Source of the DNA: Gemmatimonadota bacterium
GTDB taxonomy: Bacteria; Gemmatimonadota; Gemmatimonadetes; Longimicrobiales; Gaopeijiaceae
NCBI GenBank assembly: GCA_026706635.1
Contig: JAPOYJ010000042.1
Coordinates: 1-38,769, forward strand
Direction of reading: 5' to 3'
Length of the DNA stretch: 38,769 nt
Shown here: positions 10,498-25,586 of the stretch, piece after piece
How positions within the stretch are numbered: the first letter of the stretch is position 1
How the letters are laid out: each line of letters opens with the position of its first letter
The notes under the pieces: model-generated
Seen by the model: only the letters and a program-made list of their open reading frames with translations
What the model was told of the DNA's origin: nothing
The model's database searches: none
Translations under genes and position numbers: made by a program

Positions 10498-12960
10498 TCA
10501 TGCCACGAAGCCCTGGTGCCGCAAACGCCCCGCCAGTCCCCCCATGTAGGGGGAGGCGAGCAGCACGAGGACAACCACCGCCGCCCCCACGCTGAGCCAG
10601 AGCGCCCGCCGCACCGTGGGGGCCGTGAAGCGCATTGTCACCGTGTGCTCCCCGGCTTCCGCGATCCGCACGGCCTGCAGGGTCAGGTTGGCCCGGTGGA
10701 CGTCGGCGGGCTCGCCGTTGACCTCGGCCACCCACCCCGGGAACCAGTTCTCCGATACGACCAGCAGCGCGGGGCCGGTTGTGCTCACCCTCAACTCCCG
10801 CTCGTCGGGCTCGTAGCTCACCCACTCGACCGGGCCTGAGCCCCCGCCCCCCACGGCCCCGGGGAGCGGTGCCGCCAGAACCGCTTCGCGCCCGGGATCG
10901 AAGTCCCTCGACAGAATGCGCGCGAGGGCGGCCTCGTCGTCTTCCATGACGGTGACCCAGTCTACCGTCCATGCACGCCCGAGGCCGCCGAAAGCATATA
11001 CCGCCTCGGCACCGTACGGCCCCTGTGCGGTACTCAGGGGTCGCGGTTCCTGGTCGGAGGGGGTGCCCGACAGGACGACGTATCTGACGTTCATCATTCG
11101 CAGCACGTTCGGATGCCGCGTGTTGGCCCCGCGGCTCTGGCTGCCCTCAATGCCCAGCAGCATGCGGTACCGCGCCAGATCGTTTGGGTGATGCCCCGCG
11201 AGGAGGTCTAGGCCGTGCATTGCAAGGTCGACTTTCTGGTCGCTGCGGAAGTCCCGGCGCATGTCGGCGACCCGGAACGGTGATTCCTCCGCATGGCGCT
11301 CCTGCAGGAAGCGGACATTGGCGGTCGGCGCCGCCCACTCGTAGAAATCCACCGTTCGGATGAAGGCGCGGTCGATGCGGCCGAGATCGATGGTGACGAG
11401 TATTGTCAGCGCGGCCAGCGCCACGGTGCGCGAGATCCTACCTTCGCCCGCCGCCCAGACCGTCGTGACCGCGAGCCCCCCCAGAAACAGCGCGATGCCG
11501 AAGCCGCGCGTGATAAAGGGCGTCGCGCGTGCCAGGGCAGCCTGCTGGAAGTCTGCCATGCCGGTGTGGATGGTGCTCGTCCAGATGCCGGTGAGCACAC
11601 CGCTGGCTTGCAGGAGCAGTCCCAGGAGCAGGAGCCCCAGGAATCCCAGGAGGGCCTGGCCCCGCCTGCTCTTCAGGAATTTCCCCGGCGTGCGCGATTC
11701 CCGGACCAGATCCTCCACCCCGAGCACGAAGAGCGTCACGACCCCGAAACTCACCAGGAAGGCGGCGATAGCCGGGACTCGAAAGAGGGACATCCCTGGA
11801 ACGATCTCGTAGACGATGCGCCACACGGGCGTGTGCGCCCCTAGGGCGTAGAGCAGCCAGAGTGCGCCGAGTCCCCCCATGAACCATCTCAGCGGTCGTC
11901 TCCGATGGCCTAGGAGACCGAAGAGCGCCAGCACCAGCACAGTCATGCCCAGATACTCATGATTGAGCTTGAGTGCGTTCCTTCCCCAGTAGGTGCCCTG
12001 TCCCCAGCTCGCGTCGGCGGCCGTGTTGCCGACGAACTCGGGAACCGCCAGCGCCAGGACTTCCTCCGGATGAAAGGACCAGGAGGTCGCGTAGGCGATT
12101 CTCTGCTCCTGCGTGGCATCCACCGTGGTGGCGACGCGGCGAGAGTACTCCCCGACGTATGCGGCCGCTGGCGCGAGTTGAAACGCGGCGAGCGCGCCCC
12201 CGAGGAGCGAGCTGCCCAGGAAGACTCCCATGACCAGCGTTGCCCGGGAGAGGCGGTGTCTCCGCTCGGTTGCCTCCCCCTCCCTCCACATCAGGATCGT
12301 GCGGAAGACCGCATACGCCCCAACTGACCCGAAGAGGAAGTAGCCGGTCTGGAACTGGGTAGTTAGAAGGGTCAGGGCGACAGCGCCCGCCAACCCCGCC
12401 GCCGTTCGCCCGGAGGGTCGGCGCAGCAGTGCGTCGGCGGCCCAGAAGACCATCGGCGTCAGCGACGCGACCATGAGCTTCCCGTCGTTGCCCCCTAGGG
12501 TGAGCGTGACCATCACCGGAGCCATAAGCCAGGCCACGCCTCCGACTGTGGAGGCGGGTCGCCCAAGGCCGAGGCTCCGCGCCCAACCGTACATGAAGAA
12601 GCCCCCGGCGAGCACGTGCAGCACGAGCTTCCAGCCCAGGGCACGGTAGGCGTCGGTCAGGAAGTAGAGCAGGCTGGTTGGGTAGATGAAGTCCCCCCCC
12701 GAAATCGCCTCGAACATCGGGACCCCGCCAAGCAGCCTCGGAGCCCAGAGCGGGAAGTCACCTCCGGTGATCCGCTCCGCCAGGAATGCGCGCGCCATGT
12801 AGCCCAGCGCAAAAGTGTCTTCTCCGTAGAGCATCAGGTTGGAGAAGATGAACTCGCCGTACAGGATGACGGTCGCGAGCAGGAAGATCCCCGCGGTCAG
12901 CCAGAACGGCGGCCGCAGCACGCCCTCCTCCGCCTGGCCCGAGCTGCCTGGATGCTGCAT
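10498..12960 (-). CDS. YfhO-family multi-spanning membrane protein (GT-C-like)
   Basis: The 820-residue protein belongs to the YfhO family of large membrane proteins, thought to be polyprenyl-phosphate-sugar-dependent glycosyltransferases. The N-terminus has one TM helix, then an acidic extracytoplasmic loop (LYGEDTFALGYMARAF), followed by about a dozen hydrophobic segments. The C-terminal ~230 residues form a soluble domain (from about VRFLQERHAEESPFRVADMR) with a beta-rich portion (LLVVSENWFPGWVAEVNGEP), then a final TM helix. ATG at 12960 is the start. It diverges from the acyl-modification cassette. A truncated paralogue lies at 21932-22207. Sugar donor and acceptor are unknown. Confidence 0.85.
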   Translation of the reverse strand: MQHPGSSGQAEEGVLRPPFWLTAGIFLLATVILYGEFIFSNLMLYGEDTFALGYMARAFLAERITGGDFPLWAPRLLGGVPMFEAISGGDFIYPTSLLYFLTDAYRALGWKLVLHVLAGGFFMYGWARSLGLGRPASTVGGVAWLMAPVMVTLTLGGNDGKLMVASLTPMVFWAADALLRRPSGRTAAGLAGAVALTLLTTQFQTGYFLFGSVGAYAVFRTILMWREGEATERRHRLSRATLVMGVFLGSSLLGGALAAFQLAPAAAYVGEYSRRVATTVDATQEQRIAYATSWSFHPEEVLALAVPEFVGNTAADASWGQGTYWGRNALKLNHEYLGMTVLVLALFGLLGHRRRPLRWFMGGLGALWLLYALGAHTPVWRIVYEIVPGMSLFRVPAIAAFLVSFGVVTLFVLGVEDLVRESRTPGKFLKSRRGQALLGFLGLLLLGLLLQASGVLTGIWTSTIHTGMADFQQAALARATPFITRGFGIALFLGGLAVTTVWAAGEGRISRTVALAALTILVTIDLGRIDRAFIRTVDFYEWAAPTANVRFLQERHAEESPFRVADMRRDFRSDQKVDLAMHGLDLLAGHHPNDLARYRMLLGIEGSQSRGANTRHPNVLRMMNVRYVVLSGTPSDQEPRPLSTAQGPYGAEAVYAFGGLGRAWTVDWVTVMEDDEAALARILSRDFDPGREAVLAAPLPGAVGGGGSGPVEWVSYEPDERELRVSTTGPALLVVSENWFPGWVAEVNGEPADVHRANLTLQAVRIAEAGEHTVTMRFTAPTVRRALWLSVGAAVVVLVLLASPYMGGLAGRLRHQGFVA

Positions 12961-13215: not shown

Positions 13216-13659
13216 ATGACCTCCGAGCTACTGGCCAATGACATCAGAACGTCCAGGCTTACCTTGGACGAGGCATCGATGCGGGCGTTCGCGGAGCTGT
13301 CGGGAGACACGAACCCTATCCACGTCGACGGAGACAGCGCGCGCAGGTCCGGCTTTCCGAGACGGGTTGCGTACGCCGGCCTTCTCCTCGCAGAGGTCAG
13401 CCGGATGATCGGAACCCGCATTCCGGGGCCCGGGTCGCTCTGTGTCTCGTACCAGTTCGACTTCAAGGCTCCCGTGCTCGTCGGCGAATCGGTCCTGTTC
13501 GAAGTCACCGTCACCCACTACTCGGAGGCGGCGCGCGTGGCGCTCCTTGGGTTCGTTGTCCGCCGGGAGCACGATCAGGAGGTTGCAATGGAGGGCTCGG
13601 CGACGGTCCGCATTCCGGTCGATGAAGGGCGCAGGGATCACCTGGCCACCGACGGCTGA
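13216..13659 (+). CDS. MaoC-like hotdog hydratase / acyl thioester protein
   Basis: The 147-residue protein is a single hotdog domain of the MaoC (R)-specific enoyl-CoA hydratase type. The hydratase signature is visible at residues 28-36 (ELSGDTNPIHVD), with Asp31 and His36 as candidate catalytic residues. It is followed by ARRSGFPRRVAYAGLLLAEV, the substrate-facing helix region. ATG at 13216 gives a normal-length protein; the open frame further upstream overlaps the YfhO gene on the opposite strand and is ignored. It heads a plus-strand cassette, 9 bp before the FkbH-like gene, so it may act on an ACP- or CoA-bound acyl intermediate. Confidence 0.85.
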   Translation: MTSELLANDIRTSRLTLDEASMRAFAELSGDTNPIHVDGDSARRSGFPRRVAYAGLLLAEVSRMIGTRIPGPGSLCVSYQFDFKAPVLVGESVLFEVTVTHYSEAARVALLGFVVRREHDQEVAMEGSATVRIPVDEGRRDHLATDG

Positions 13660-13668
13660 AGGAGCACG

Positions 13669-15513
13669 ATGGCCTCTTTGGGACCCGCACAGGTCGTGCA
13701 GGACGGGGACTGGAGCGAACGCCTGCGCAGGGCGGCCGCGAAGCTTGCGTCTGCCCCGTCCCATGCGAATGCGCACGAGGCCTACCGGGCCGGCATGGAG
13801 GCGCCGGCCACTGTGGAGGGGTTCGCCCCCCTGAATTGCGGCATCCTGCGAAACGTGACGGTGGAGCCGTGGCTGCCGGAGTTGTACGGCGCCCTCCTGC
13901 AGCGCGGCATCAAGACGACTTTCCTGGTCGGCGACTACGCCGTCTACGAGCCCTACGCGTCCGCTCCCGCCGACCTGGGCACCCCCATGCCGGACTGCTT
14001 CCTGGTCTACCTGGATGCGGGGGTCCTGGCGGGCGACGCGCGCCACGATCCGCCTGCGGACATGGGAGGAGCGCTCCTGGGACGCATCAGGGCGATCGTG
14101 GGCGGCCTGATCGAGCGCACCAGCGCCAACGTCGTCGTCACCAACCTCGCGCCGGAGCCGCATCCGGTTCATTCGGTGCATGGGGACCAGGATCGGAAAG
14201 GGTGGCCACACCTTCGCAGGACGGTGAACGCGGAGCTGACAGCCGCCCTTTCCGAGGAGCCACGGGTGTCGATTCTGGATATGGACCGAATCGTAGGGGA
14301 GTTCGGGGCTTCCCGCGCGTACGACATGCGAATGTACATGACCGCCGCCAGTCCCTTCGCGGTCGAATTCCTGCCACAGCTGGGGCGGGCGTTTGCGGCG
14401 ACGGTCGCAGCCGCCGTCCTGCCTCCGAGGAAGTGTGTGGTCGTCGACTGCGACAACACCCTCTGGGGGGGCATCCTCGGCGAAGACGGTCCAGAGGGAG
14501 TCGCGATCGGGACGAACTACCCCGGGTCCGCCTACCGCGAATTCCAGCTTTTCCTTGCCGGGCTCGCCCGCAGGGGATTCCTCCTGGCCCTGAACAGCAA
14601 GAACAACGAGGGCGACGTGTTGTCGTTCATGGAGGAATGCCCGGAGATGGTCCTCGGGCCTGCCGACTTCGCGGCCTGGCGGATCAACTGGGAGGACAAG
14701 GCGGCCAACCTGGCGGAGCTTGCGCAAGATCTGAACATAGGGCTCGACTCGATGGTCTTCATCGACGACAGTCCCTTCGAGTGCGAACGCGTGAAGTCGG
14801 CGCTGCCCGAGGTTCAGGTCGAACGGTTCCCCGCCAACCCCCTTGAAGTCCCGCGGTATCTGTCCGCAATCCAGGGAGTCGAGCGGCTCGGCGTCGGAAG
14901 CGACGACCTTGCCCGCACCGAGTCCATCCGCGCGAATGCACGCCGCGAGAGACTCAGGAGGGAGACCCCGGACCTGGGTTCATTCCTTCGGAGCCTCTCA
15001 ATCAAGCTGACGATCGCGCGACAGGACCGGACGGCGGTGCGACGGATCAGCGAGCTCTGCCAGCGCACCAACCAGTTCAACCTGACGACCAAGAGATACA
15101 GCGTGGGCGACATCGAACGCCTGATGGACGAGGGCGCAGTCTATACCATGAGCATGAAGGATCGTTTCTCGGACTACGGAACCATAGGAGTCGCGATCGT
15201 GGATACGGGTTCCGGGGACCGCTGGGAGATCGATTCCTTCATGTTGAGCTGCCGGGCATTCGGACGCGGGGTGGAAGTGGAATTGCTCAAGGCGGTGCTG
15301 GAGGACGCCGGGACGGCGGGTGTGCGGTCGGTCGGAGCCCGCCATGTTGCCACCGCAAAGAACGGAATGACGCGCAACTTCTTCCCCGATCACGGGTTCG
15401 CCGAGACGGAGGGGCCGAACGGCGAGGTAAGGTTCGAGATGCGCATCGGTGCGGCCGACGGGCGTCGGACGGCAGGCGTCGGCGAGGTGCGGCGAGTGGA
15501 GTCTCCGACATGA
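13669..15513 (+). CDS. FkbH-like HAD-IIIC enzyme
   Basis: FkbH-type proteins load a three-carbon unit from 1,3-bisphosphoglycerate onto an acyl carrier protein and remove the phosphate. This 614-residue protein has the family layout. An N-terminal SGNH-like region covers about 50-250. The HAD-IIIC domain has motif I DCDNTLWGG at 260-268, LNSKNNE near 308-314 and FIDDSPFE at 364-371. A GNAT-like C-terminal domain contains the NQFNLTTKRY and FSDYGTIG segments and ends near residue 600. Catalytic Asp260 and Asp262 are intact. Its stop overlaps the ACP start (ATGA), strongly implying that the two proteins work together. The substrate could instead be another phosphorylated acid. Confidence 0.92.
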   Translation: MASLGPAQVVQDGDWSERLRRAAAKLASAPSHANAHEAYRAGMEAPATVEGFAPLNCGILRNVTVEPWLPELYGALLQRGIKTTFLVGDYAVYEPYASAPADLGTPMPDCFLVYLDAGVLAGDARHDPPADMGGALLGRIRAIVGGLIERTSANVVVTNLAPEPHPVHSVHGDQDRKGWPHLRRTVNAELTAALSEEPRVSILDMDRIVGEFGASRAYDMRMYMTAASPFAVEFLPQLGRAFAATVAAAVLPPRKCVVVDCDNTLWGGILGEDGPEGVAIGTNYPGSAYREFQLFLAGLARRGFLLALNSKNNEGDVLSFMEECPEMVLGPADFAAWRINWEDKAANLAELAQDLNIGLDSMVFIDDSPFECERVKSALPEVQVERFPANPLEVPRYLSAIQGVERLGVGSDDLARTESIRANARRERLRRETPDLGSFLRSLSIKLTIARQDRTAVRRISELCQRTNQFNLTTKRYSVGDIERLMDEGAVYTMSMKDRFSDYGTIGVAIVDTGSGDRWEIDSFMLSCRAFGRGVEVELLKAVLEDAGTAGVRSVGARHVATAKNGMTRNFFPDHGFAETEGPNGEVRFEMRIGAADGRRTAGVGEVRRVESPT

Positions 15514-15743
15514 GCGAGAGCACGGAAGCGACTCTCGAGAGGATCTTTCGGAGTGTGCTCAAGGTGCGGCCGGGTGAGGACGTAGCTTCGGTGTCTGTCG
15601 AGTCGCATGGCTGGGACTCGGTCGCCCACCTGAATCTCATCCTGGCGGTCGAACAGGAGTTCCGCTTCATGATGACTCCAGATGAGGCGTCGGCTGCGAG
15701 TTCCTTCCGAGCGATGCTGGATCTGGTGAACAGCCGGCGATAG
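15510..15743 (+). CDS. Acyl carrier protein
   Basis: The 77-residue protein is a stand-alone acyl carrier protein. The phosphopantetheine attachment site is Ser37 in GWDSVAHL, followed by the usual helix II/III pattern (LNLILAVEQEFRFMMTPDEA). The start codon ATG overlaps the stop of the FkbH-like gene, so it is most likely the dedicated carrier for that enzyme rather than the fatty-acid AcpP. It is one base from the next gene. Confidence 0.93.
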   Translation: MSESTEATLERIFRSVLKVRPGEDVASVSVESHGWDSVAHLNLILAVEQEFRFMMTPDEASAASSFRAMLDLVNSRR

Positions 15744-15744
15744 G

Positions 15745-16641
15745 GTGGTGAACACTGTGCGCGGCCCCGGTGTATTCGCACTCCGCTTCGACGTGGACTC
15801 GGTAACATGCCTCGAGCATGGGGTCCCTGCCCTGCTGAAACTGGGCGAGCGCCACGGCGTACGGTTCACTTTCTTCGTGAACATGGGGCGCAGCTTCAGC
15901 TGGCGGCATACGGTCGCACGCACGCTCAGGTCGAGGCGCGCCCGAACGACGGGTGACGACGCTGGCGGCGCACGCGCGAACAAGCTGCCGGCGGCGGCGA
16001 AGCTCGGACGGAGCGGCGTGCTGAAGACCGTGCTGATGAATCCGCGACTCGGGTGGCGTTATCGCCCAGCCCTTGACCGACTTTTTGAGGAGGGACACGA
16101 ACTGGGACTGCACGGGGGCTCCAATCACGCGACGTGGCAGTACGCCCTCGATGAACTGGGGGAGGATGGTCTACAGAGGCACGTCCGGTCGTCCTTCGCG
16201 ACTTTCCGGGATCGATACGGGCAGCCGAGCGGCTTCGCCAGCCCGGGATTTCGCTACAACGAGGCAGTGCTGGACCTCGTGGACAGCGAAGGCTTCGAGT
16301 ACGCCTCGGACATGACCGGGGAGCGACCGTTCCGGCCTGCCCGTCCTGGCAGCAAGCGCCGCTACACCCACTTCCAGGTCCCGGTCAACGTGATCGGAGA
16401 GGACAGTGTTCCCGTCATCGAACAGGGCCTGGCCCTTGGCCGGTCCGACGTCCGTATTGTACGCGACGCGGTTGAACGGATCCGCGAGCGGCGGTTCGCG
16501 CTGATGTACGGACATCCATACGTCGAGGGCGTTCATTGGCGCCTCCTCGACGCGATTTTCGCGGAGCTGTCGGGCGACTACGAAGTCGTCACCGTCGCCG
16601 AGTACCTCAGGCGCTGGAAGGAGTCGGCTAGCCATGGGTAG
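15745..16641 (+). CDS. NodB/ArnD-like polysaccharide deacetylase
   Basis: The 298-residue protein is a carbohydrate esterase 4-type deacetylase most like ArnD deformylases. It has LRFDVDSVTCLEHGVPALL, with metal/catalytic Asp16 and Asp18, followed by LGERHGVRFTFFVNMGR. The later motifs are HELGLHGGSNHATW, the ASPGFRYNEAVLDLV substrate loop and FALMYGHPY near the C-terminus. A roughly 50-residue arginine- and alanine-rich stretch after residue 52 is an insertion relative to short family members. GTG at 15745 is two bases after the ACP stop. The context suggests it removes an N- or O-acyl group from a lipid-linked sugar so that another acyl group can be added. Confidence 0.87.
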   Translation: MVNTVRGPGVFALRFDVDSVTCLEHGVPALLKLGERHGVRFTFFVNMGRSFSWRHTVARTLRSRRARTTGDDAGGARANKLPAAAKLGRSGVLKTVLMNPRLGWRYRPALDRLFEEGHELGLHGGSNHATWQYALDELGEDGLQRHVRSSFATFRDRYGQPSGFASPGFRYNEAVLDLVDSEGFEYASDMTGERPFRPARPGSKRRYTHFQVPVNVIGEDSVPVIEQGLALGRSDVRIVRDAVERIRERRFALMYGHPYVEGVHWRLLDAIFAELSGDYEVVTVAEYLRRWKESASHG

Positions 16642-17095
16642 GGTCATTCGATACCTGGCTTCCATGCTTCCGATCGGCCAGGGATTGCGTGCGCGTCTTT
16701 ATGGCGTGAGCGGGCTTCGGGTCGGAGCGCTGACGATCATCGATCGGAATGTGCAGATCACCCGGCCCGACATGGTGACGGTCGGATCGCGCGTCACGAT
16801 CTGCAATGCGGTCTCGATACTGGGGGAAGTGACGGCTGTAAACTCCCGACTGGAAACGACGTACAGCCTTCGGAAGACGGAACCGGTCGTGATCGGGGAC
16901 GATGCCTACATCGGCGTCAAGGCAACGATCCTGCCAGGAGTCCGGATCGGCCGAATGGCCACGGTCGGAGCGAATACCCTCGTGATCGCCGATGTGCCGG
17001 ACTACGGTGTGGTGCTGGGCGTCCCAGGGCGGGTTATGATGATTCGTTCCCACGAGAAGGACGCGGCTGCCGAGAGCGGCGGCGGCGATTCATGA
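16634..17095 (+). CDS. Left-handed beta-helix (hexapeptide) acyltransferase
   Basis: The 153-residue protein shows hexapeptide-repeat coils (VGSRVTICNAVSILGEV; VIGDDAYIGVKATILPGVRI) and the typical closing motif VVLGVPGRVM, as in serine/maltose/sialic-acid O-acetyltransferases. A basic, hydrophobic N-terminus (VIRYLASMLPIGQGLRARLY) may sit at the membrane. The start overlaps the deacetylase by 8 bp, so it belongs to the cassette. The acyl donor could be acetyl-CoA or the neighbouring ACP; the sequence does not decide. A conserved active-site His is not obvious in the visible repeats, so activity should be treated with some caution. Confidence 0.85.
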   Translation: MGRVIRYLASMLPIGQGLRARLYGVSGLRVGALTIIDRNVQITRPDMVTVGSRVTICNAVSILGEVTAVNSRLETTYSLRKTEPVVIGDDAYIGVKATILPGVRIGRMATVGANTLVIADVPDYGVVLGVPGRVMMIRSHEKDAAAESGGGDS

Positions 17096-17113: not shown

Positions 17114-17954
17114 ATGAGTTACCCAGACCGCGAGTCGGTTCGGATGGAGTCGGCGGATAGCGCCAAACAGGCAAGGAGACCGCAAACGCCGCTCTGGAAA
17201 CGCACGCCGCTTGTTGCGGCTGTGGTTCTAGGCACCGCGTGCACCTCCACACCGCCAGAAGAGCCTGTGACCGAACGCGACGCGCTCGTCGCGCTGTACG
17301 AGAGCACTGGAGGTCCCAATTGGATAAGGGAGGATGGGTGGCTATCGGACACTGCTCTGGGCGACTGGTACGGCGTCGGTACCGACGACCAGGGTAACGT
17401 CACGCGCATCGTGCTCAACGAGAACAACCTCGTTGGTTCCCTTCCGCCCGAGCTCGGTGTGCTGACACACCTCAGCCGCTTGAGCCTTTCAGCGCAACAC
17501 GCTCACTGGCGAGATTCCCGCGGAGTTGGGACAACTAGCGAGCATCGATACACTGGACCTTTACGTCAATGAGTTGAGCGGCGCGATTCCGCAGGAGCTG
17601 TTGGGACTTGAGGAAGTTTCGATGCTGCTTCTTGGCTTCAACGAGCTCTCGGGTTCCATCCCGCCGGGACTCGGTTCCATGCCCGGCCTCGAGAAACTGT
17701 GGCTGAACCACAACAACTTCTCGGGCGATGTGCCACCTGAACTGGGCGACCTCGGGGCCCAGCTGCAGTGGCTTGACTTTCAGGGGAACCCGGGGCTGCA
17801 GGGAGCACTTCCCCGTGAACTCATCGATCTGACCGGCCTCGTCAGGTTCGAGTGGGGCGGTACGAACCTGTGCTCGCCGTCAGACGACGAGTTCCAGGAG
17901 TGGTTGCGATCCGTGCCCAACTCGTATGGTCACGGCCCACGTTGCGATCCGTGA
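17114..17954 (+). pseudogene. LRR lipoprotein gene with a 1-nt frameshift
   Basis: A good ribosome site (AAAGGAGA) precedes ATG 17114. The first frame gives a hydrophobic signal with Cys43 (VLGTACTS) and the start of a leucine-rich-repeat domain (TERDALVALYESTGGPNW; NNLVGSLPPELGVLTHLSRL), then ends at 17572 in unrelated sequence. The next frame continues the LRRs from about 17496 (LTGEIPAELGQL-type, then NELSGAIPQELLGL and more) to 17954. Deleting one C at about 17495 restores a single protein of roughly 280 residues. This is either a real inactivating insertion or a sequence error. The intact form would be a surface LRR lipoprotein, likely a binding protein. Confidence 0.82.
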
Positions 17955-18063: not shown

Positions 18064-18918
18064 CTATGGGAACCCGACGGCGAGTCGGGTTCCCTGGATC
18101 GCATGAACTCTCATCTTGTCCGCGATTTCGTCTACGGCCCTGCTGACATCCTCCTGCATGCCGTAGTCATGCCAGACGATCACCCCTGCAGGCCGCACCA
18201 CGCGCAGTGCGTTGCGCGTGTCGGCCACGGCATACTCGCAGGTGTGACATCCATCGATCAGGATGAAGTCGAAGGGCGAGAATTCGTCCCAGTCGAACCG
18301 GGCGGAGTCACCCCACAGTTGCTTGACCTTCCCCGCATACCGCGACGCGATGAACTGCCGCCCCGTGTGGCGACCGGGAGCGGCGTTGTCGTGAATGTCC
18401 GGCACCTCCAGCCCGAAGGTTCCGCCCCATGCGGGCGGCAGATCGAGCGTATACACACGGGCGTCCGAAGGGGCATTGGCGGCGAGGTTGACGGTCGTGT
18501 TGCCCTCGAAGGTGCCGATCTCGAGAACGCGCTCGGGCTTGAGCAGGCGCACCATGGCTCCGATGGCCATAACCTCGGACGGGCTCATCGACAGCAGGGG
18601 TTCCCGGTCGAAACAGCTCACGATCCGGACATCGGTGGACTCGATACCCGGAAACACCGCATTCATCGGCTCCCGCTTCAGCTTCCCGAAGGACCAGCGG
18701 ATGGACCGGCGGAACTCGGGATCCGGCGCCCGGGTGGCGAATGGCCCGTAACGCGGCCACAGCATCTTCCAGGCGGTGATCGGGTTGCGGGCGCTCTTGG
18801 CGGCGGCGTTCCTCGCTCGGCGCAAGATCTGGGTGACCCGGTTCGCTCCCCGGGCCTTTCGGCCTGACCAGGCTGTGCGGGCTCCGCCTTCAGGTTTCGG
18901 TGTCTTGCTGCCTGCCAC
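18064..18918 (-). CDS. Class I SAM-dependent methyltransferase
   Basis: The 284-residue protein has a Rossmann-type SAM site (VLEIGTFEGNTTVNLAA, about residues 143-159), then VYTLDLPPAW, FDFILIDGCHTCEYAVAD and GGVIVWHDYG-like (AGVIVWHDYG) strands. This matches the Methyltransf_24 group that often modifies sugars or O-antigen. The first ~60 residues are basic and poorly conserved; the GTG at 18918 is the longest start and a downstream start is possible. It is convergent with the LRR gene and upstream of the proline dehydrogenase on the same strand. The methyl acceptor is unknown. Confidence 0.8.
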   Translation of the reverse strand: MAGSKTPKPEGGARTAWSGRKARGANRVTQILRRARNAAAKSARNPITAWKMLWPRYGPFATRAPDPEFRRSIRWSFGKLKREPMNAVFPGIESTDVRIVSCFDREPLLSMSPSEVMAIGAMVRLLKPERVLEIGTFEGNTTVNLAANAPSDARVYTLDLPPAWGGTFGLEVPDIHDNAAPGRHTGRQFIASRYAGKVKQLWGDSARFDWDEFSPFDFILIDGCHTCEYAVADTRNALRVVRPAGVIVWHDYGMQEDVSRAVDEIADKMRVHAIQGTRLAVGFP

Positions 18919-19154: not shown

Positions 19155-20084
19155 TCACCGCGGAAGGATATTCCTCGCCAGGAAGCCGATATTGGCTGGC
19201 CGTTCGGCGAGTCTGCGGGCGTACCACGCGAACCAGTGGCTGCCGTAGCTAATCAGCACGCGAACCTTTCTGCCTGTCCTCGCCAGTCGGCGCTGCTCGC
19301 CTTCGGCGATCCCGTAGAGCATCTGGTGCTCCCACGAGCCCGCCTCGACCCCTTTCTCCTCCGCCCACCTGCCCACCCGGCGGATGATCGACGTGTCGTG
19401 AGTTGCCAGACCAAGTCGCACCCCGGCCCTGCGCGCGTCCGGCTGCAGCAGACGGGTCGCCTGCTGGAAGAGCGCCGCATCCACCTCCCTCCTGGTCGGA
19501 AGCGCGATCGTGGGCGGCTCGGCGTAGGCCCCCTTGACTATGCGGATGGAGGCACCGAGCGGAATCAGCGACTCCAGATCCTCGGGGGTTCGCCGCAGGT
19601 ACGACTGGAGGCAGATCCCCACCCTGGGGTGGTCGACCAGTAGGGCCCGGTACAGAGTCAGCGTGGCACTGACGTACCGGCTGTACTCCATGTCCAGCCA
19701 CACGCAGCTCCCCTTCTCCTCGGCCGCCTCCGCGACCCGGCGTATGTTCCTCTCGGCGACGGCAATCCCGAAGTCCAGCCCCAGGTGCGTCGGCTTGAGC
19801 GATATCTCGGCGTCGAGACCCGACTTCGACACCCTGTGCGCCACCTCGCAGTATTGGTCGGCGGCCCGCTTCGCCTCCTCTTCGCTCTCCACATTCTCGC
19901 CCAGCACGGTGACCAAGGCCGACATCCCATGCCGGTCGGAGAGCTTCCGTGCGGCCCGGAGCGCATCCTCCAACTCCTCACCGGGCATGAAGCGCCCCAC
20001 GGCCCGTCTCACGAACCCGTACCGTGGCAGCGTCCTGCTGCACCACCTGTTCTCGGAGGCCCAGAGGAGCATCGATCTGATCAT
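19155..20084 (-). CDS. Proline dehydrogenase
   Basis: This FAD enzyme oxidises L-proline to pyrroline-5-carboxylate. The 309-residue, monofunctional protein keeps the barrel motifs DAEISLKPTHLGLD, CVWLDMEYSRYVSATL, GICLQSYLRRTPEDLE, RIVKGAYAEP, LATHD and SWEHQMLYGIAEGEQRRL. The C-terminus includes YGSHWFAWYARRLAERP, matching the usual Y-GxxWxxYxxRRLAERP signature. No P5C dehydrogenase gene is adjacent, which is common for short PRODHs. It sits as a lone metabolic gene inside a surface-glycan region. Confidence 0.93.
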   Translation of the reverse strand: MIRSMLLWASENRWCSRTLPRYGFVRRAVGRFMPGEELEDALRAARKLSDRHGMSALVTVLGENVESEEEAKRAADQYCEVAHRVSKSGLDAEISLKPTHLGLDFGIAVAERNIRRVAEAAEEKGSCVWLDMEYSRYVSATLTLYRALLVDHPRVGICLQSYLRRTPEDLESLIPLGASIRIVKGAYAEPPTIALPTRREVDAALFQQATRLLQPDARRAGVRLGLATHDTSIIRRVGRWAEEKGVEAGSWEHQMLYGIAEGEQRRLARTGRKVRVLISYGSHWFAWYARRLAERPANIGFLARNILPR

Positions 20085-20145
20085 GGCAATGAGTCTGCAC
20101 GCAAGGGGAGCTCCTGGCCAGCCGCCAGGGGTCCGGCGATGCCCT

Positions 20146-20874
20146 TCACAGCTTGCCGAAGAGGTCCATTATCCGCAGCTGCCACACCTTCCAGACCGCC
20201 TCGCGGATGATCCGCCCCGACATCTTCGACTCGCCGCTGTCGCGCTCGGTGAAGACGATCGGCACCTCGCCGAGCGAGAAGCCCTTGCGCCACGCCCGGT
20301 ACTTGAGCTCGATCTGGAAGCTGTACCCATTCGAGCGGATGCGGTCCAGTCCCACTGCCTCCGCGACCTCGCGGCGAAATCCGTTGAAGCCGCCTGTGGC
20401 GTCAACGACCGGAAGGCCGGTGATCGTGCGCGCATACCACGACCCGAAGAGGCTGATGACCAGCCGCCGGAGCGGCCAATTCACCACTGTGATCCTGCCG
20501 CCGACGTAGCGGGACCCGACCGCCACGTCAACCTCGTCGAGTGCGCCGACCAGCTGCGGAAGCACATAGGCGGGGTGGGAGAGGTCGGCGTCCATCTCAA
20601 TGAGAAGGTCGAAGTCGCGCTGAAGACCCCAATCGAATCCAGCGACATACGCCGCCCCCAGACCGAGCTTCCCAGGACGATGAAGCACATTCACCCGACT
20701 GCTCTTCTCCGCCAGCTGGTCCGCCAGCAACCCCGTCCCGTCGGGAGAGTTGTCGTCCACGATCAGAACGTGGAACCCATTGCCCTGCTGCAGGATCAAT
20801 GGCACCACCCGAGGCAGGTTCTCAACTTCGTTGTACGTCGGAACGACCACCAGCGCCTTCCGGTCCGCGCTCAC
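20146..20874 (-). CDS. Polyprenol monophosphomannose synthase (DPM1-like GT2)
   Basis: The 242-residue soluble GT2 enzyme would transfer mannose (or a similar hexose) from its GDP or UDP form to polyprenyl phosphate. Motifs: LVVVPTYNEVENLPRVV, VLIVDDNSPDGTG, LGLGAAYVAGFDWGL, EMDADLSHP (metal-binding DAD) and DATGGFNGFRREV. The C-terminus (KMSGRIIREAVWKVWQLR) is typical of the short DPM1 form without TM helices. GTG at 20874 overlaps the stop of the flippase-like gene (GTGA). The polyprenyl-P-sugar could feed YfhO- or GT-C-type transferases. Confidence 0.93.
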   Translation of the reverse strand: MSADRKALVVVPTYNEVENLPRVVPLILQQGNGFHVLIVDDNSPDGTGLLADQLAEKSSRVNVLHRPGKLGLGAAYVAGFDWGLQRDFDLLIEMDADLSHPAYVLPQLVGALDEVDVAVGSRYVGGRITVVNWPLRRLVISLFGSWYARTITGLPVVDATGGFNGFRREVAEAVGLDRIRSNGYSFQIELKYRAWRKGFSLGEVPIVFTERDSGESKMSGRIIREAVWKVWQLRIMDLFGKL

Positions 20875-21863
20875 GGCATGCCTCCTGCCACCGATGGGGG
20901 TGGCCTTCGCAGCACCAGCACCCCGACAGCCGCACCGACCAGCTCTACGCTCGTGATCCAGATGCGCTGCAGAGCCGCCAGCACGAAGCCCGCCTCGACA
21001 CCGACTATCGGTGCCAGCAAGCCAACCAGCCCCGACTCGCGCACGCCGATGCCAGCGGGTGCGAAGAGGGCGATGTACCCCGCGAAGTAGGCGGCCGCAA
21101 AGGCCGTGGTCGCAACGACAAGACCTGTCTCCATCCCGACCCCCCAGGCGAGGCACGCGAAGGCGAGCCCGTGCAGGGCCCAGTTGAAGAGGTAGCCAGG
21201 AAGGAGGAGCGCCAGCCTGCGCCCGCTGGGGCGTGGGAGGTCGGCGGCGCTGCCGGTGCGCCTGAGCAGCCAGCCGAGGAGTGCGCCCGCTCCCCCGAAG
21301 TGCAGGAAGGCGGCGGCAGCGAGGACTGCCAGCAGCCCGACAAGGATGCTTGTCGTCCCCATCGTCCCCATCGTCCCCATAGTCCCCATCCGGGTCGCGA
21401 TCACCCATCCGCCGCAGAGGGCTGCGCCCACCATGTTGAGGATCTGGCTCGCGATGGCCGCCGACGTCGCCTTGGTTGCCGAGAGCCCCCTCTGCCGCGC
21501 CAGAATGCCGACTCCCGCAAGCTGCATGATCTTGCCCGGAAGGTAGCGGCCCAGATTGGCGAGTATGAGGATTGCGGCCGCATCGGCCAGACGGACACCC
21601 GGTTCCCCGAATTCGTCGAGCACGCGGCACCAGAGCGCCGCTGTGACCGGCAGTGTCGCCGCCAGAAGCGCCACCGAGAGGGCGAGAGGAAGCGGGTGCA
21701 GGTCCACGCGTGACCAGTCGATGGCGCCGATCTCGTCGAGGCCGATGCCGGCTATGCGCAGGATGAGCCATGTCGCCGCGACGGTGAGCAGCAGCTTGGC
21801 CAGGACCGACCCCCACGCCCTTGCGCGCCCCCCCCTCCCCTTCTCCTCCCTGGGGCCGCTCAC
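20871..21863 (-). CDS. Lysylphosphatidylglycerol synthase-TM/AglD-type flippase-like membrane protein
   Basis: About 330 residues with eight or so TM segments and the UPF0104/LPG-synthase TM signature: ILANLGRYLPGKIMQLAGVG and FAPAGIGVRESGLVGLL. Members commonly sit next to DPM1-like genes and are proposed to move or help use lipid-linked sugars. The cytosolic loop near mid-protein contains (MGT)4, encoded by four 9-bp direct repeats. The start is uncertain: GTG 21863 (VSGPREEKG) is chosen because coding character starts there and the preceding in-frame stretch overlaps the YfhO relic. The 3' end overlaps the GT2 start. Confidence 0.8.
   Translation of the reverse strand: MSGPREEKGRGGRARAWGSVLAKLLLTVAATWLILRIAGIGLDEIGAIDWSRVDLHPLPLALSVALLAATLPVTAALWCRVLDEFGEPGVRLADAAAILILANLGRYLPGKIMQLAGVGILARQRGLSATKATSAAIASQILNMVGAALCGGWVIATRMGTMGTMGTMGTTSILVGLLAVLAAAAFLHFGGAGALLGWLLRRTGSAADLPRPSGRRLALLLPGYLFNWALHGLAFACLAWGVGMETGLVVATTAFAAAYFAGYIALFAPAGIGVRESGLVGLLAPIVGVEAGFVLAALQRIWITSVELVGAAVGVLVLRRPPPSVAGGMP
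21355..21390 (-). repeat. 9-bp minisatellite (4 units) inside the flippase-like gene
   Basis: Four tandem copies of GTCCCCATC (third copy ends ATA) encode Met-Gly-Thr four times. The unit is a multiple of three, so gain or loss of copies leaves the frame intact. It lies in a loop between membrane segments. Confidence 0.9.
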
Positions 21864-21931
21864 TCCGTCGGGGCTGCGGCCTGGATCGCCGGTTCTCCCG
21901 GCGCAACCGTCGGTCGGCTTGGTGACCACCG

Positions 21932-22207
21932 TCACGGTGCGGATGCCAGTCGGGATCGTGTGCGAGCCACGGGGCGGCCGAGCCTGGGCCACATCGCCGG
22001 GGCGACAACCCAGAGCGGGAAGTCGCCCCCGGCGATGCGCTCGACGAAGAAGGCTCGCGCCATGTACCCGAGCACGACGGTGTCCTCGCCGTGGGGCATC
22101 TCGTCGGAGAAGACGAACTCGCCGAAGAGGACGGCCACGGCCACGACGTAGAGGGCCGCGGTCCCCCACCGGGGGATGAGCACTTCGTCGGCGGGCTTTC
22201 TCGTCAT
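21932..22207 (-). pseudogene. Truncated YfhO-family gene (N-terminal relic)
   Basis: The ORF starts ATG at 22207 and encodes 91 residues. Residues up to GGDFPLW align with the N-terminus of the full YfhO protein at 10498-12960: first TM helix, GEDT...LGYMARAF and ERI.GGDFPLW, with 29 identities over 43 aligned positions. After about position 22014 the homology stops abruptly and an arginine-rich tail of no recognised family follows to the stop. About 750 codons of the family are missing, so this is a deletion relic lying between the GT4 gene and the flippase-like gene. Confidence 0.85.
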
Positions 22208-22216
22208 CGCCCGAAA

Positions 22217-23320
22217 CTACCTTCCCAGCAGCCCACGGTACACCTCGACGTGCCTCTCCACGAGACGCTCGTTGCTCCAGGAGGCCAGCACCCTGCGCCG
22301 TCCCGTCGCACCCCGCTCAGCTAGCCGGCCACCTCCAAGGAGCTCGACTACCTTGGCGGCGAGAGCGTCGGGGTCGGCTGGCGGAAAGAGTCCGCCAACC
22401 TCGTCGTCGACTATCTCCGGGAGTCCGCCCACAGCCGATGCGGCGACGGGGAGCTCGCACGCCATGCACTCGATCGCCGCCACCGAGGTCGCCTCGACAA
22501 GCGACGGGAAGACGGCTAGGTCTCCCGAACAGAGGAGAGCGGGCATCTCGGGGTGGGGCTTCGCGCCCAGGAAGGTGACGCGGTCTGACACTCCCAGCTC
22601 ACGGGCCAGCGCCTCGAGTTTACCCCGCTCGGGGCCGTCGCCGATCAGGATCGCCTCGACATCCACCGCCGCCGCGATCATCGGCATCGCCCTGACGAAG
22701 TGTTCGACCCCGCACTTGGCGAATAGGCGGCGGGGCACCACCAGGCGAGCCCGCGACTCCGAGCGCGGCAGGGATCCCGGCACAGGGCGGAAGACCTCGG
22801 TGTCGACTCCGTTCACCAGGACCTCGACATCGATGGTGGGCCCAAGGCTCTCGCCTACATCAGCTATCTCCTTGCTGGCAGCAAAGTTGTAATCGCTGAA
22901 CTCAAGCAGCTTACCGAGTGGCGGCGCGAGTGCTCGATTGGCGGCGAGGCGCAGGAAGTGCGACGTGTGGAGGGTGCAGGCGAGCGGCGTGCTGGACCCC
23001 ACCAGCGCCACCCGGCACGGCAGCAGCGAGGGAAAGGCCTGCGCGTGCACGATGTCGGCGGCGTGCGCCAGCCTCCTGGTGCGCGGCGTCGAGCCGAGCG
23101 CGTGCGCGAGCCAGCCCAGCGGTGTGCGCGCCGGTAGCGGCGTCCTGTGGATCTCGATACCGCCGACGACCTCTCGGCGCGCGAGGCCAGGCTGGGAGAG
23201 GGACGTCACCACGACAACCTCGTGGCCGCGCGCCACAAGGCCTCGGCAGAGGTAGTGCACATGGCTCTCGAGCCCGCCCACCTCAGGGGGGTAGTAGACG
23301 CAGTGGACGAGGATCCTCAC
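22217..23320 (-). CDS. Glycosyltransferase family 4
   Basis: The 367-residue GT-B enzyme has the N-terminal acceptor-domain start VHCVYYPPEVGGLESHVHYL and the C-terminal nucleotide-sugar domain with VVPRRLFAKCGVEHFVRAMP, LIGDGPERGKLEALARELG, VTFLGAKPHPEMPALL and the E-x7-E motif ending in the CELPVAASAVGGLPEIV loop. It retains a retaining-GT4 layout; the sugar is not predictable. The GTG at 23320 overlaps the wecB stop (GTGA). It is the last intact gene before the YfhO relic. Confidence 0.92.
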   Translation of the reverse strand: MRILVHCVYYPPEVGGLESHVHYLCRGLVARGHEVVVVTSLSQPGLARREVVGGIEIHRTPLPARTPLGWLAHALGSTPRTRRLAHAADIVHAQAFPSLLPCRVALVGSSTPLACTLHTSHFLRLAANRALAPPLGKLLEFSDYNFAASKEIADVGESLGPTIDVEVLVNGVDTEVFRPVPGSLPRSESRARLVVPRRLFAKCGVEHFVRAMPMIAAAVDVEAILIGDGPERGKLEALARELGVSDRVTFLGAKPHPEMPALLCSGDLAVFPSLVEATSVAAIECMACELPVAASAVGGLPEIVDDEVGGLFPPADPDALAAKVVELLGGGRLAERGATGRRRVLASWSNERLVERHVEVYRGLLGR

Positions 23321-24504
23321 GGAGCGTTCCAGTCGCCGAGCTGGCGTGGCTCCCCGCCGAGCTCGGCCAGGACGATGTCGGCGATCCGCTCCCCCGCCCG
23401 ACCGTCTCCGTACGGATTGGCGGCTGTCGGCACCGGACGCCCTCCCGAAAGGTGGGCGCTCGCCTCGGAGACGATCAGCTCCTGGTCCGTACCCACCAGG
23501 GTGGCCACCCCCGCCCGCACCCCCTCCGGGCGCTCCGTCACCTCCCGTAGCACGAGCGTGTGCACTCCGAAGGTCGGCGCCTCCTCCTGGATGCCGCCTG
23601 AGTCGGTGAGGACCAGTGCGGCGCGGTCGAGCGCGGTTATCAGGTCGTCGTAGTCAAGGGGGTCGGTGAGACGAACGCCGGGCGAGGCGCCCAGGATCCG
23701 GTGTGCGGGCTCCAGGACCCGGGGGTTCGGATGCACGGGGTAGAGCACGGCTACGTCCTCGAATCGGTTCGCCAGCGCGGCCACCGCCGCGAAGACGCGC
23801 TCGATTGGCTCGCCGAAGGACTCGCGTCGATGCGCGGTGAGGAGCACGAGACGGCGGCCGGAGGCAAGTAGCTCAGCCAGCTGGGGGTCCATTGGGGGCG
23901 GGAGGCGCGAACGCATCCGCTCCAGAGCATCCACCACGGTGTTGCCGGTGACGAATATCCGATCGCCGGGGACCCCCTCTCGGGCGAGGTTGCCAGCCGC
24001 CTCGGCCGTCGGAGCGAAGCAGTAGTCCGAGACGACGTCCGTCATCCGCCGGAGCATCTCCTCCGGGAAGGGAGACCACTTGCGGTGGCTGCGAAGTCCG
24101 GCCTCGACATGACCCAGCCTGCCCTGGCGGAAGAAGGTCACAAGAGCCGCGAAGAAGACCGTCGCGGTGTCGCCCTGCACCAGGGTAAGGTCCGGCGAAT
24201 AATCCTCCTCGACCTCACGGAGGCCGTCGAGGCAGGCATGGCCCACATCGAACAGGGTCTGCCCGGGCCTCATCAACTCAAGGTCGTAGCTCGGGGTCAG
24301 CTCGAAGGCGGCCAGGGCCTGCTCGACCATCTCGGCGTGCTGCCCCGTGAGCGCAAGCCGGTGCTCGCATCCGCCCCGGCGCTCGAGTGCGCTCACCACG
24401 GGCGCCATCTTGATGGCCTCCGGACGGGTGCCGACAACCGACAGGATCCGGGGGCGCGGACGCTCTTCCGATGCGCCCCCCTGTGATCCCTCCGTGCGCG
24501 CCAC
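23317..24504 (-). CDS. wecB: UDP-N-acetylglucosamine 2-epimerase (non-hydrolysing)
   Basis: WecB interconverts UDP-GlcNAc and UDP-ManNAc for surface polysaccharides. The 395-residue protein has GTRPEAIKMAPVV near residue 25, QGDTATVF, HVEAGLRSH, PFPEEMLRRMTDVVSD, TGNTVVDAL, LTAHRRESFG and LTDSGGIQEEAP, all expected for the family. The ManNAc dehydrogenase WecC is not in the window. The GTG at 24504 has AGGGG upstream. The 5' leader is formed by the CTGCTAG core and twin palindromes at 24512-24601. Confidence 0.95.
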   Translation of the reverse strand: MARTEGSQGGASEERPRPRILSVVGTRPEAIKMAPVVSALERRGGCEHRLALTGQHAEMVEQALAAFELTPSYDLELMRPGQTLFDVGHACLDGLREVEEDYSPDLTLVQGDTATVFFAALVTFFRQGRLGHVEAGLRSHRKWSPFPEEMLRRMTDVVSDYCFAPTAEAAGNLAREGVPGDRIFVTGNTVVDALERMRSRLPPPMDPQLAELLASGRRLVLLTAHRRESFGEPIERVFAAVAALANRFEDVAVLYPVHPNPRVLEPAHRILGASPGVRLTDPLDYDDLITALDRAALVLTDSGGIQEEAPTFGVHTLVLREVTERPEGVRAGVATLVGTDQELIVSEASAHLSGGRPVPTAANPYGDGRAGERIADIVLAELGGEPRQLGDWNAP

Positions 24505-24623: not shown

Positions 24624-25586
24624 CTAGGCGTCGACACCCCGGCGACCCTTCGCCCCCAGGGTGGCCTCGCGTTCCCCGCGCATGGCGTCCAGCTCGTCGT
24701 GGACCGAGGCGATCATCTCGCCCAGGAAGCCAGCGGCGAAGAGGAGTGCGCCGACGGTGACCAGCAGCACGACCAGGTAGAGGAGCGGCCGGTATCCCTG
24801 CTCCAGCGCAAAGCGCATGTAGAGGCCCCAGAGCCCGACGAGCACACCCGCCCCGACGAGCGCCACGCCGGGAAGCCCGAAGGCCACCATCGGCCTGCGC
24901 GCCAGACGCAGCTGGAACCAGACGGCGACTAGGTCGAGCACGCCGCCGACGATCCTCCCCTTCCCGGAGTACTTGGCCACCCCGGCCTCGCGCGGGTGCA
25001 GCTCGATCTCGATCTCGGTGGCGCTGAAGCCCTGCCGATACGCCATGACCACGAAGAACCGGTGCCAGTCGTGCCTCAGACGCAGATTCGCCATCACCTC
25101 GGCCCGAAAGGCCTTCATCGAGTTGAGGTCGCTCACCGGCACCCTGAAGATCCTGCGGCTGAGGGCATTGTAGATCGACGAGACGGTTCGCTTGCTGTAC
25201 TTCCCTACCTTCCTTCCGGTGACGATGTCCCACCCCTCGTCGAGCTTGTCCAGGAAGCGCGGGATCTCGTCCGGCAGGTGCTGCAGGTCGGCGTCGAAGA
25301 GAACCAGATTCCGCCTTTCGGTGGCGCGCGCACCCGTTACAAGCGCCTCGGTCTTGCCCTGGTTGGCCCTGTGGCGCAGAACCGTTAGCGCCGACCAGTT
25401 GCAGCCGAGCTTGCGGGCCAGCTCGCCGGTACCATCGGTCGAGCCATCGTCTACGAGCACCACCTCCCCCTCTAGTCCGTGCCGTTCGAAGGCGGCGCGC
25501 AGCTCCGCGACCAGACGCTCCACATTGGGCGCCTCGTTGAAGGCGGGCACGATGACGGCGAAGTCGCGACGGGCGGTCGACGGCAC
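24624..25586 (-). CDS. Glycosyltransferase family 2 with C-terminal membrane helices
   Basis: The 320-residue protein has a GT2 catalytic domain: AVIVPAFNEAPNVERLV, VLVDDGSTDGTGELAR, NQGKTEALVTGA and the metal motif FDADLQHLPDE. It has two C-terminal TM helices near residues 235-285, as in polyprenyl-phosphate glycosyltransferases such as ArnC/GtrB/DPM1-like enzymes. The start GTG lies one base after the rpoN stop, placing it in the LPS operon where E. coli has hpf and ptsN. The sugar is unknown. Confidence 0.88.
   Translation of the reverse strand: MPSTARRDFAVIVPAFNEAPNVERLVAELRAAFERHGLEGEVVLVDDGSTDGTGELARKLGCNWSALTVLRHRANQGKTEALVTGARATERRNLVLFDADLQHLPDEIPRFLDKLDEGWDIVTGRKVGKYSKRTVSSIYNALSRRIFRVPVSDLNSMKAFRAEVMANLRLRHDWHRFFVVMAYRQGFSATEIEIELHPREAGVAKYSGKGRIVGGVLDLVAVWFQLRLARRPMVAFGLPGVALVGAGVLVGLWGLYMRFALEQGYRPLLYLVVLLVTVGALLFAAGFLGEMIASVHDELDAMRGEREATLGAKGRRGVDA

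Follow-up and report, generated by a model that had tools for sequence, protein, structure and literature searches.

A mobile FkbH-ACP-deacetylase-hexapeptide module in a Gemmatimonadota glycan locus, with a possible role in acyl exchange on an amino sugar

FkbH-type proteins usually serve polyketide synthase (PKS) and nonribosomal peptide synthetase (NRPS) lines (PMC3625739, PMC13122637, PMC4552970). One homologue is reported to produce glyceryl-S-acyl carrier protein in vitro (PMC3625739). The loading module proposed for suomilide takes up glycerate, likely from 1,3-bisphosphoglycerate, which is then methylated (PMC13122637); OocJ is described with a dehydratase (DH), a methyltransferase (MT), FkbH and an acyl carrier protein (ACP) within one module, its DH and MT being said to lack conserved motifs (PMC4552970); and one published pathway model links FkbH loading to D-lactate (PMC7901079). 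The subject here is a gene cassette in which FkbH and an ACP keep different company: a sugar deacetylase and a short hexapeptide protein, inside a surface-glycan locus. It lies on contig JAPOYJ010000042.1 of a Gemmatimonadota bacterium (family Gaopeijiaceae; assembly GCA_026706635.1), whose 38,769 nucleotides are called the window below.

Several described systems resemble this module in part. In LpxC and LpxD of lipid A synthesis, a deacetylase is followed by a hexapeptide N-acyltransferase that uses acyl-ACP, and together they exchange the acyl group of an amino sugar; unlike the module, the pair has an LpxC of another fold, a long acyl group, a place in a core, non-mobile pathway, and no FkbH. 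The FkbGHIJK cassette for methoxymalonyl-ACP shares with the module FkbH, an ACP and an O-methyltransferase-type gene, whereas no FkbI/FkbK-type dehydrogenase gene was found among the neighbouring window genes scanned, and no ketosynthase (KS) in the flanking sequence retrieved for the 13 module loci. The tetronate glyceryl-ACP pairs Tmn16/Tmn7a and AbyA2/AbyA3 also set FkbH beside a discrete ACP, but their product goes to a polyketide, and they include no deacetylase, hexapeptide protein or glycan locus. Finally, clusters of FkbH, ACP and a membrane-bound O-acyltransferase (MBOAT), found on pSymB of S. meliloti, on a Rhodobacteraceae plasmid and at loci L075-L077, set an FkbH-ACP pair, with no ketosynthase, beside an enzyme that may acylate sugars; there the membrane O-acyltransferase replaces the module's deacetylase and hexapeptide protein. 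(On pSymB, the MBOAT-ACP-FkbH set, L057:5657-10692, lies upstream of the genes for capsular polysaccharide export, at a distance of a few kb.)

Five open reading frames (ORFs) on the + strand make up the cassette as first delimited: a MaoC-like dehydratase/hydratase (13216..13659; PF01575, 9.4e-16, 58 bits against a cut-off of 27); a long-form FkbH-type HAD protein, with an N-terminal domain and a C-terminal acyltransferase domain (13669..15513; TIGR01686, 3.4e-83, its 279.4 bits above the curated cut-off of 146.65); an ACP with Ser37 as the expected carrier site (15510..15743; PF00550, 3.5e-05); a NodB/ArnD-like sugar deacetylase with a GTG start (15745..16641; PF01522, 2.1e-06, 28.1 bits against a cut-off of 23.1); and a short hexapeptide (left-handed β-helix) acyltransferase-like protein (16634..17095; PF00132, 1.4e-07). 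From MaoC to the hexapeptide gene, the junctions are a 9 bp gap, a 4 bp overlap, a 1 bp gap and an 8 bp overlap. In comparisons with at most three relatives, these five genes, and likewise the methyltransferase and YfhO genes described below, have dN/dS values of 0.09-0.27. The cassette genes are thus working genes, and because their order is also retained across species, the arrangement is not due to chance. All five are genuine, closely spaced genes that experience purifying selection. An initial annotation, made from the DNA alone, had placed these ORFs and assigned their families correctly, as coordinates, spacings and Pfam/NCBIfam profile scans agree; the serine it singled out in the ACP belongs to a WDS motif common to 13 of 13 orthologues.

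That annotation drew its five-gene boundary too narrowly, however. The unit also includes a methyltransferase dependent on S-adenosylmethionine (18064..18918, - strand; PF13578, 3.5e-16) and a YfhO-like membrane protein that diverges from the cassette and moves with it (10498..12960, - strand; PF09586, 29.7 bits against a cut-off of 28.5). MaoC, by contrast with its place in the original set, is optional: it is intact at 8 of 13 module loci, a remnant at two (L029, L031) and not found at three (L032, L058, L059), and was therefore rejected as a constant member. The constant parts are FkbH, the ACP, the ArnD-like deacetylase and the short hexapeptide protein. FkbH residues D260, D262 and C528, the HAD aspartate pair and C-terminal cysteine, are invariant in all eight aligned sequences; the eight aligned MaoC rows retain DTNPIH, an instance of the D-x-N-P-x-H motif of MaoC dehydratases.

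Of 121 genomes of the Gemmatimonadota family, 12 carry the module, with 13 loci among them and three gene orders. The initial annotation had asked whether the families co-occur across genomes and named lack of conservation as grounds for abandoning its idea; the set is instead retained in those 12 genomes and three orders. Within the genus, 10 of 23 genomes carry it (that of the window, and nine of 22 others with this FkbH type), and every one of the 13 hexapeptide loci lies within about 3 kb of FkbH. The two positive genomes outside the genus have different gene orders: L058 has an ACP-deacetylase-hexapeptide run on one strand and FkbH on the other, and in L059 a hexapeptide-methyltransferase pair and an FkbH-ACP-deacetylase run are divergently oriented. 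The module methyltransferase follows the same pattern, being present in nine of the 10 positive genus genomes and in none of the 13 negative ones; in the tenth positive genome (G008) the cassette contig ends before the methyltransferase position. Outside the genus, L059 has it, and a search of 18 kb at L058 revealed no copy. Across a sample of 298 genomes of the phylum, 48 have FkbH (E <= 1e-40), 19 have a member of the deacetylase family and 16 one of the hexapeptide family (both at E <= 1e-15). Ten of the 16 hexapeptide matches are strong (E <= 1e-60), and all 10 of those genomes carry all three genes; the other six are weak, and none of their genomes has FkbH at the threshold used. The module is accessory and all-or-none: it comes or goes as one unit within a glycan locus whose synteny is otherwise preserved.

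(The window's genome measures 2.81 Mb, and its named relatives are Gemmatimonadetes/Gemmatimonadota metagenome-assembled genomes, presumably of sponge origin to judge by their isolate names. One bin, G005, holds two module contigs of different clades, L027 and L029, that end in the same GT4 stretch; alleles, distinct strains and contamination (6%) are possible explanations.)

The core of that glycan locus lies on the - strand and comprises a GT4 glycosyltransferase (22217..23320; identified by profile scan and conserved in module-positive and module-free genomes); WecB, a UDP-GlcNAc 2-epimerase (23317..24504; TIGR00236, 3.4e-124, above cut-off); and an ArnC-like GT2 of the polyprenyl-phosphate sugar transferase type (24624..25586; NF007986, 2.2e-27, below cut-off). 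Of the 13 genus genomes that lack the module, 12 could be read at the corresponding site, the thirteenth (G012) having no WecB match. In these 12, wherever the retrieved stretch covers them, RpoN, the ArnC-like GT2 and WecB retain their order, as do GT4, YfhO, a flippase-like gene and a second GT2. The interval between GT4 and YfhO is at most about 130 bp in nine of them; in the other three (L047, L049, L055) it is about 1 kb and holds one methyltransferase-type ORF (L047:12409-13305 and L055:13064-13915, both by family scan; L049 by sequence likeness to L047). The L047 protein has no significant similarity to the module methyltransferase. Because the interval may be empty, hold one methyltransferase or hold the whole module, it behaves as a tailoring slot.

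YfhO and the module moved as one block, as judged from a tree conflict, a gap in YfhO identity and a relic of the resident YfhO. A tree of flanking genes (second GT2, GT4, WecB, ArnC-like GT2) separates the window from the remaining clade-A species (starred sets, 95 and 98), whereas in the YfhO tree it groups within clade A (100, starred); both trees are quick ones, the flank tree gives the window a long branch, and three clade-A rows hold only 18% of the flank columns. The window's YfhO shares 71-85% identity with the five other clade-A copies, against 62-67% with those of module-free genomes; GT4 and WecB show no comparable gap between the two groups. Moreover, the N-terminus of a second YfhO (about 66 residues; 21932..22207, - strand) sits between GT4 and the flippase-like gene, with 48-63% identity to full-length copies in the same place. 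By horizontal transfer the window's lineage gained both YfhO and the module, and its resident YfhO survives in truncated form. In the window alone, a proline dehydrogenase, the second GT2 and the flippase-like gene (19155-22207, - strand) stand between the module methyltransferase and GT4; at the remaining module loci that were read, these genes stand on the far side of YfhO.

What does the module do? An accessory role in glycan modification is highly probable. All 13 module loci have deacetylase sequence, intact in 11, and a hexapeptide gene without a deacetylase gene was never seen at these loci. The reverse does occur. Among 22 named loci outside the genus that carry deacetylase relatives, 19 have a GT4-like gene next to the deacetylase or no more than a kb away, 15 have a WecB-like gene at a distance of up to about 5 kb, and none has FkbH; in L102 and L109, from the same Gemmatimonadota family, a lone deacetylase stands between GT4 and WecB in this same glycan locus. 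These neighbourhoods indicate that the deacetylase pairs with WecB/GT4 glycans by itself, and that FkbH, ACP and hexapeptide protein are added on top. The chief reason to propose that deacetylation precedes a re-acylation is this asymmetry: deacetylase occurs without hexapeptide protein, but never the reverse. (A Pacearchaeota contig, L107:8085-9278, also carries a relative of the deacetylase, diverging from a hexapeptide protein similar to that of the module.)

Comparison with solved structures gives the enzyme a provisional place. ArnD (4-deoxy-4-formamido-L-arabinose-phosphoundecaprenol deformylase, 8t0j) is nearest by sequence (4.8e-09) and also by fold (Z 14.5), and the window's locus includes the ArnC-like GT2; the fold match is weak support, because the deacetylase model has a mean pLDDT of 60. 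Against the ArnD equivalog NF011923 the deacetylase scores E 2.1e-18 and 66.6 bits, far under the cut-off of 382, and its partners differ from those of ArnD. The predicted metal-site residues D16, D18, H123 and H128, whose roles are assigned by analogy, are shared by all 11 intact copies as well as by L060 and L061.

The best reading is a cytoplasmic deacetylate-then-reacylate step on an amino sugar of a surface-glycan precursor, the acyl group and the acceptor being presumptive. FkbH would take a three-carbon acyl group, most likely D-glyceryl from 1,3-bisphosphoglycerate, dephosphorylate it, and load it on Ser37 of the ACP, as its family suggests. The methyltransferase might O-methylate the ACP-bound acyl group or the product, and MaoC, where present, might dehydrate or hydrate either. 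The ArnD-like deacetylase would strip acetyl from a HexNAc built by the adjoining WecB, GT4 and ArnC-like genes; the hexapeptide protein would move the acyl group from ACP to the freed amine; and the product would be exported, with the co-moving YfhO attaching it to the surface glycan. Exchange of the N-acyl group on an amino sugar is given somewhat better than even odds, and a glyceryl-type acyl group, by analogy with known FkbH systems, about even odds. The three steps of FkbH/ACP loading, deacetylation and hexapeptide re-acylation, taken together, fall a little short of even. Glyceryl or O-methylglyceryl is favoured by the in vitro, suomilide and OocJ precedents, the module having, as separate proteins, the four kinds of component that OocJ combines. 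A lactyl or hydroxyacyl group is also possible, given the fusions of MaoC to short-chain dehydrogenase/reductase (SDR) proteins beside FkbH in L073-L075. Only tentatively, then, can the whole be proposed: a mobile, free-standing module in which FkbH-activated (O-methyl)glyceryl-ACP replaces the N-acetyl group of a surface-glycan amino sugar, outside PKS/NRPS lines, and diversifies the glycans of the genus. The initial annotation had suggested that an acyl group on a lipid-linked sugar is swapped for a glyceryl or hydroxyacyl group carried by the ACP. The core of that idea, an acyl swap on a glycan sugar, gains support from 12 genomes in three gene orders and from a hexapeptide gene always accompanied by the deacetylase; its inclusion of MaoC as a fixed partner did not hold.

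Several observations weigh against this proposal. MaoC has no clear role in it and is lost at several loci. YfhO matches PF09586 at its C-terminus only, over the last 48 of 835 model positions. In G022 the deacetylase is split between two frames, and part of its interior is deleted at the second G005 locus, in each case with the rest of the cassette retained; and the structural model of the deacetylase is one of low confidence. The hexapeptide protein raises a further doubt. Its predicted model (pLDDT 76) matches 3ect (VIA, Z 15.1, rmsd 2.0 over 121), and its left-handed β-helix matches the LacA-like 1kqa (Z 14.5, rmsd 2.2 over 122 residues). LacA-like hexapeptide O-acetyltransferases use a catalytic His in a loop; the 13 aligned orthologues have no invariant His. 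Position 70 is H in nine, N in three (the window, L024, L058) and S in one (L059), so the notion that the window alone had lost a catalytic His at N70 was dropped. Lacking an invariant His, the hexapeptide protein might be no conventional acyltransferase; the same lack also fits, weakly, an amine acceptor better than a hydroxyl. Among the best 25 of 43 NCBIfam matches in the profile scan, LpxA is present and LpxD is not.

The hexapeptide protein is also where a rival account begins, since its closest solved structures, by sequence and by fold, are mostly O-acetyltransferases. The cassette might combine two independent decorations: the deacetylase freeing an amine, and FkbH, ACP and hexapeptide protein placing a glyceryl-type ester on a hydroxyl, either of that sugar or of a different one. 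MBOAT O-acyltransferases stand beside FkbH-ACP pairs at other loci (L056, L057, L075, L076, L077), and the deacetylase family works without FkbH elsewhere. This account leaves the constant pairing of hexapeptide and deacetylase genes to be explained, and sits poorly with a protein that has no invariant His of the kind that O-acetyltransferases use; it is judged unlikely. Equally unlikely is an acyl group other than glyceryl, with MaoC, ACP and other enzymes making a 3-hydroxyacyl or lactyl group and FkbH serving another small acid. MaoC at 8 of 13 loci, its fusion to SDR-type reductases beside FkbH-ACP (L073, L074, L075) and the D-lactate pathway model speak for it, but MaoC is missing or broken at the other five loci and the module contains no reductase.

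The usual employment of FkbH suggests yet another role, in which the module feeds glyceryl-ACP or methoxymalonyl-ACP in trans to a PKS encoded elsewhere. The initial annotation's remark that no ketosynthase is present is true of the locus and not of the genome, where FabF and PKS/FAS-like ketosynthases lie on other contigs; the PKS-like domains occupy a 3533-aa frame on C51 (L110). PKS-type ketosynthases (a KS in a frame far longer than FabF) occur, however, in 22 of 23 genus genomes, with or without the module. The fetched flanks of all 13 module loci lack a KS; KS was found in the fetched flank at four of 40 FkbH loci, and all four match only the C-terminal part of the window's FkbH. Several flanks stop at contig ends. 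The PKS genes do not track the module, which is independent of them. Moreover, the module moves together with YfhO, and the FkbI/FkbK-type gene was not seen among the neighbours scanned. Having followed KS domains across genus genomes and FkbH loci, we consider a PKS supply role very improbable.

No part of the module is new as a family; its combination and mobility set it apart as a variant among glycan acylation systems. A limited literature search (most subscription journals lay outside its coverage) found no paper describing the module, and none joining FkbH with O-antigen or lipopolysaccharide terms. The initial view that no described pathway has this exact set agrees with that search, though the logic resembles known deacetylase/N-acyltransferase pairs. 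FkbH/ACP glyceryl loading has hitherto been known from polyketide and peptide natural products. If the proposed exchange is correct, it would bring a new donor chemistry to glycan diversity; members of one genus would bear differently acylated glycans, explaining cell-surface differences among related uncultured Gemmatimonadota; and the module would offer a few enzymes with which unusual N-acyl sugars could be made.

One further gene adjoins the cassette. It encodes a leucine-rich-repeat protein (17114-17954, + strand) that is split between two frames in the window, where the first ORF has a lipoprotein-like N-terminus, and is a single frame in L026. This gene is found at some module loci and not at others.

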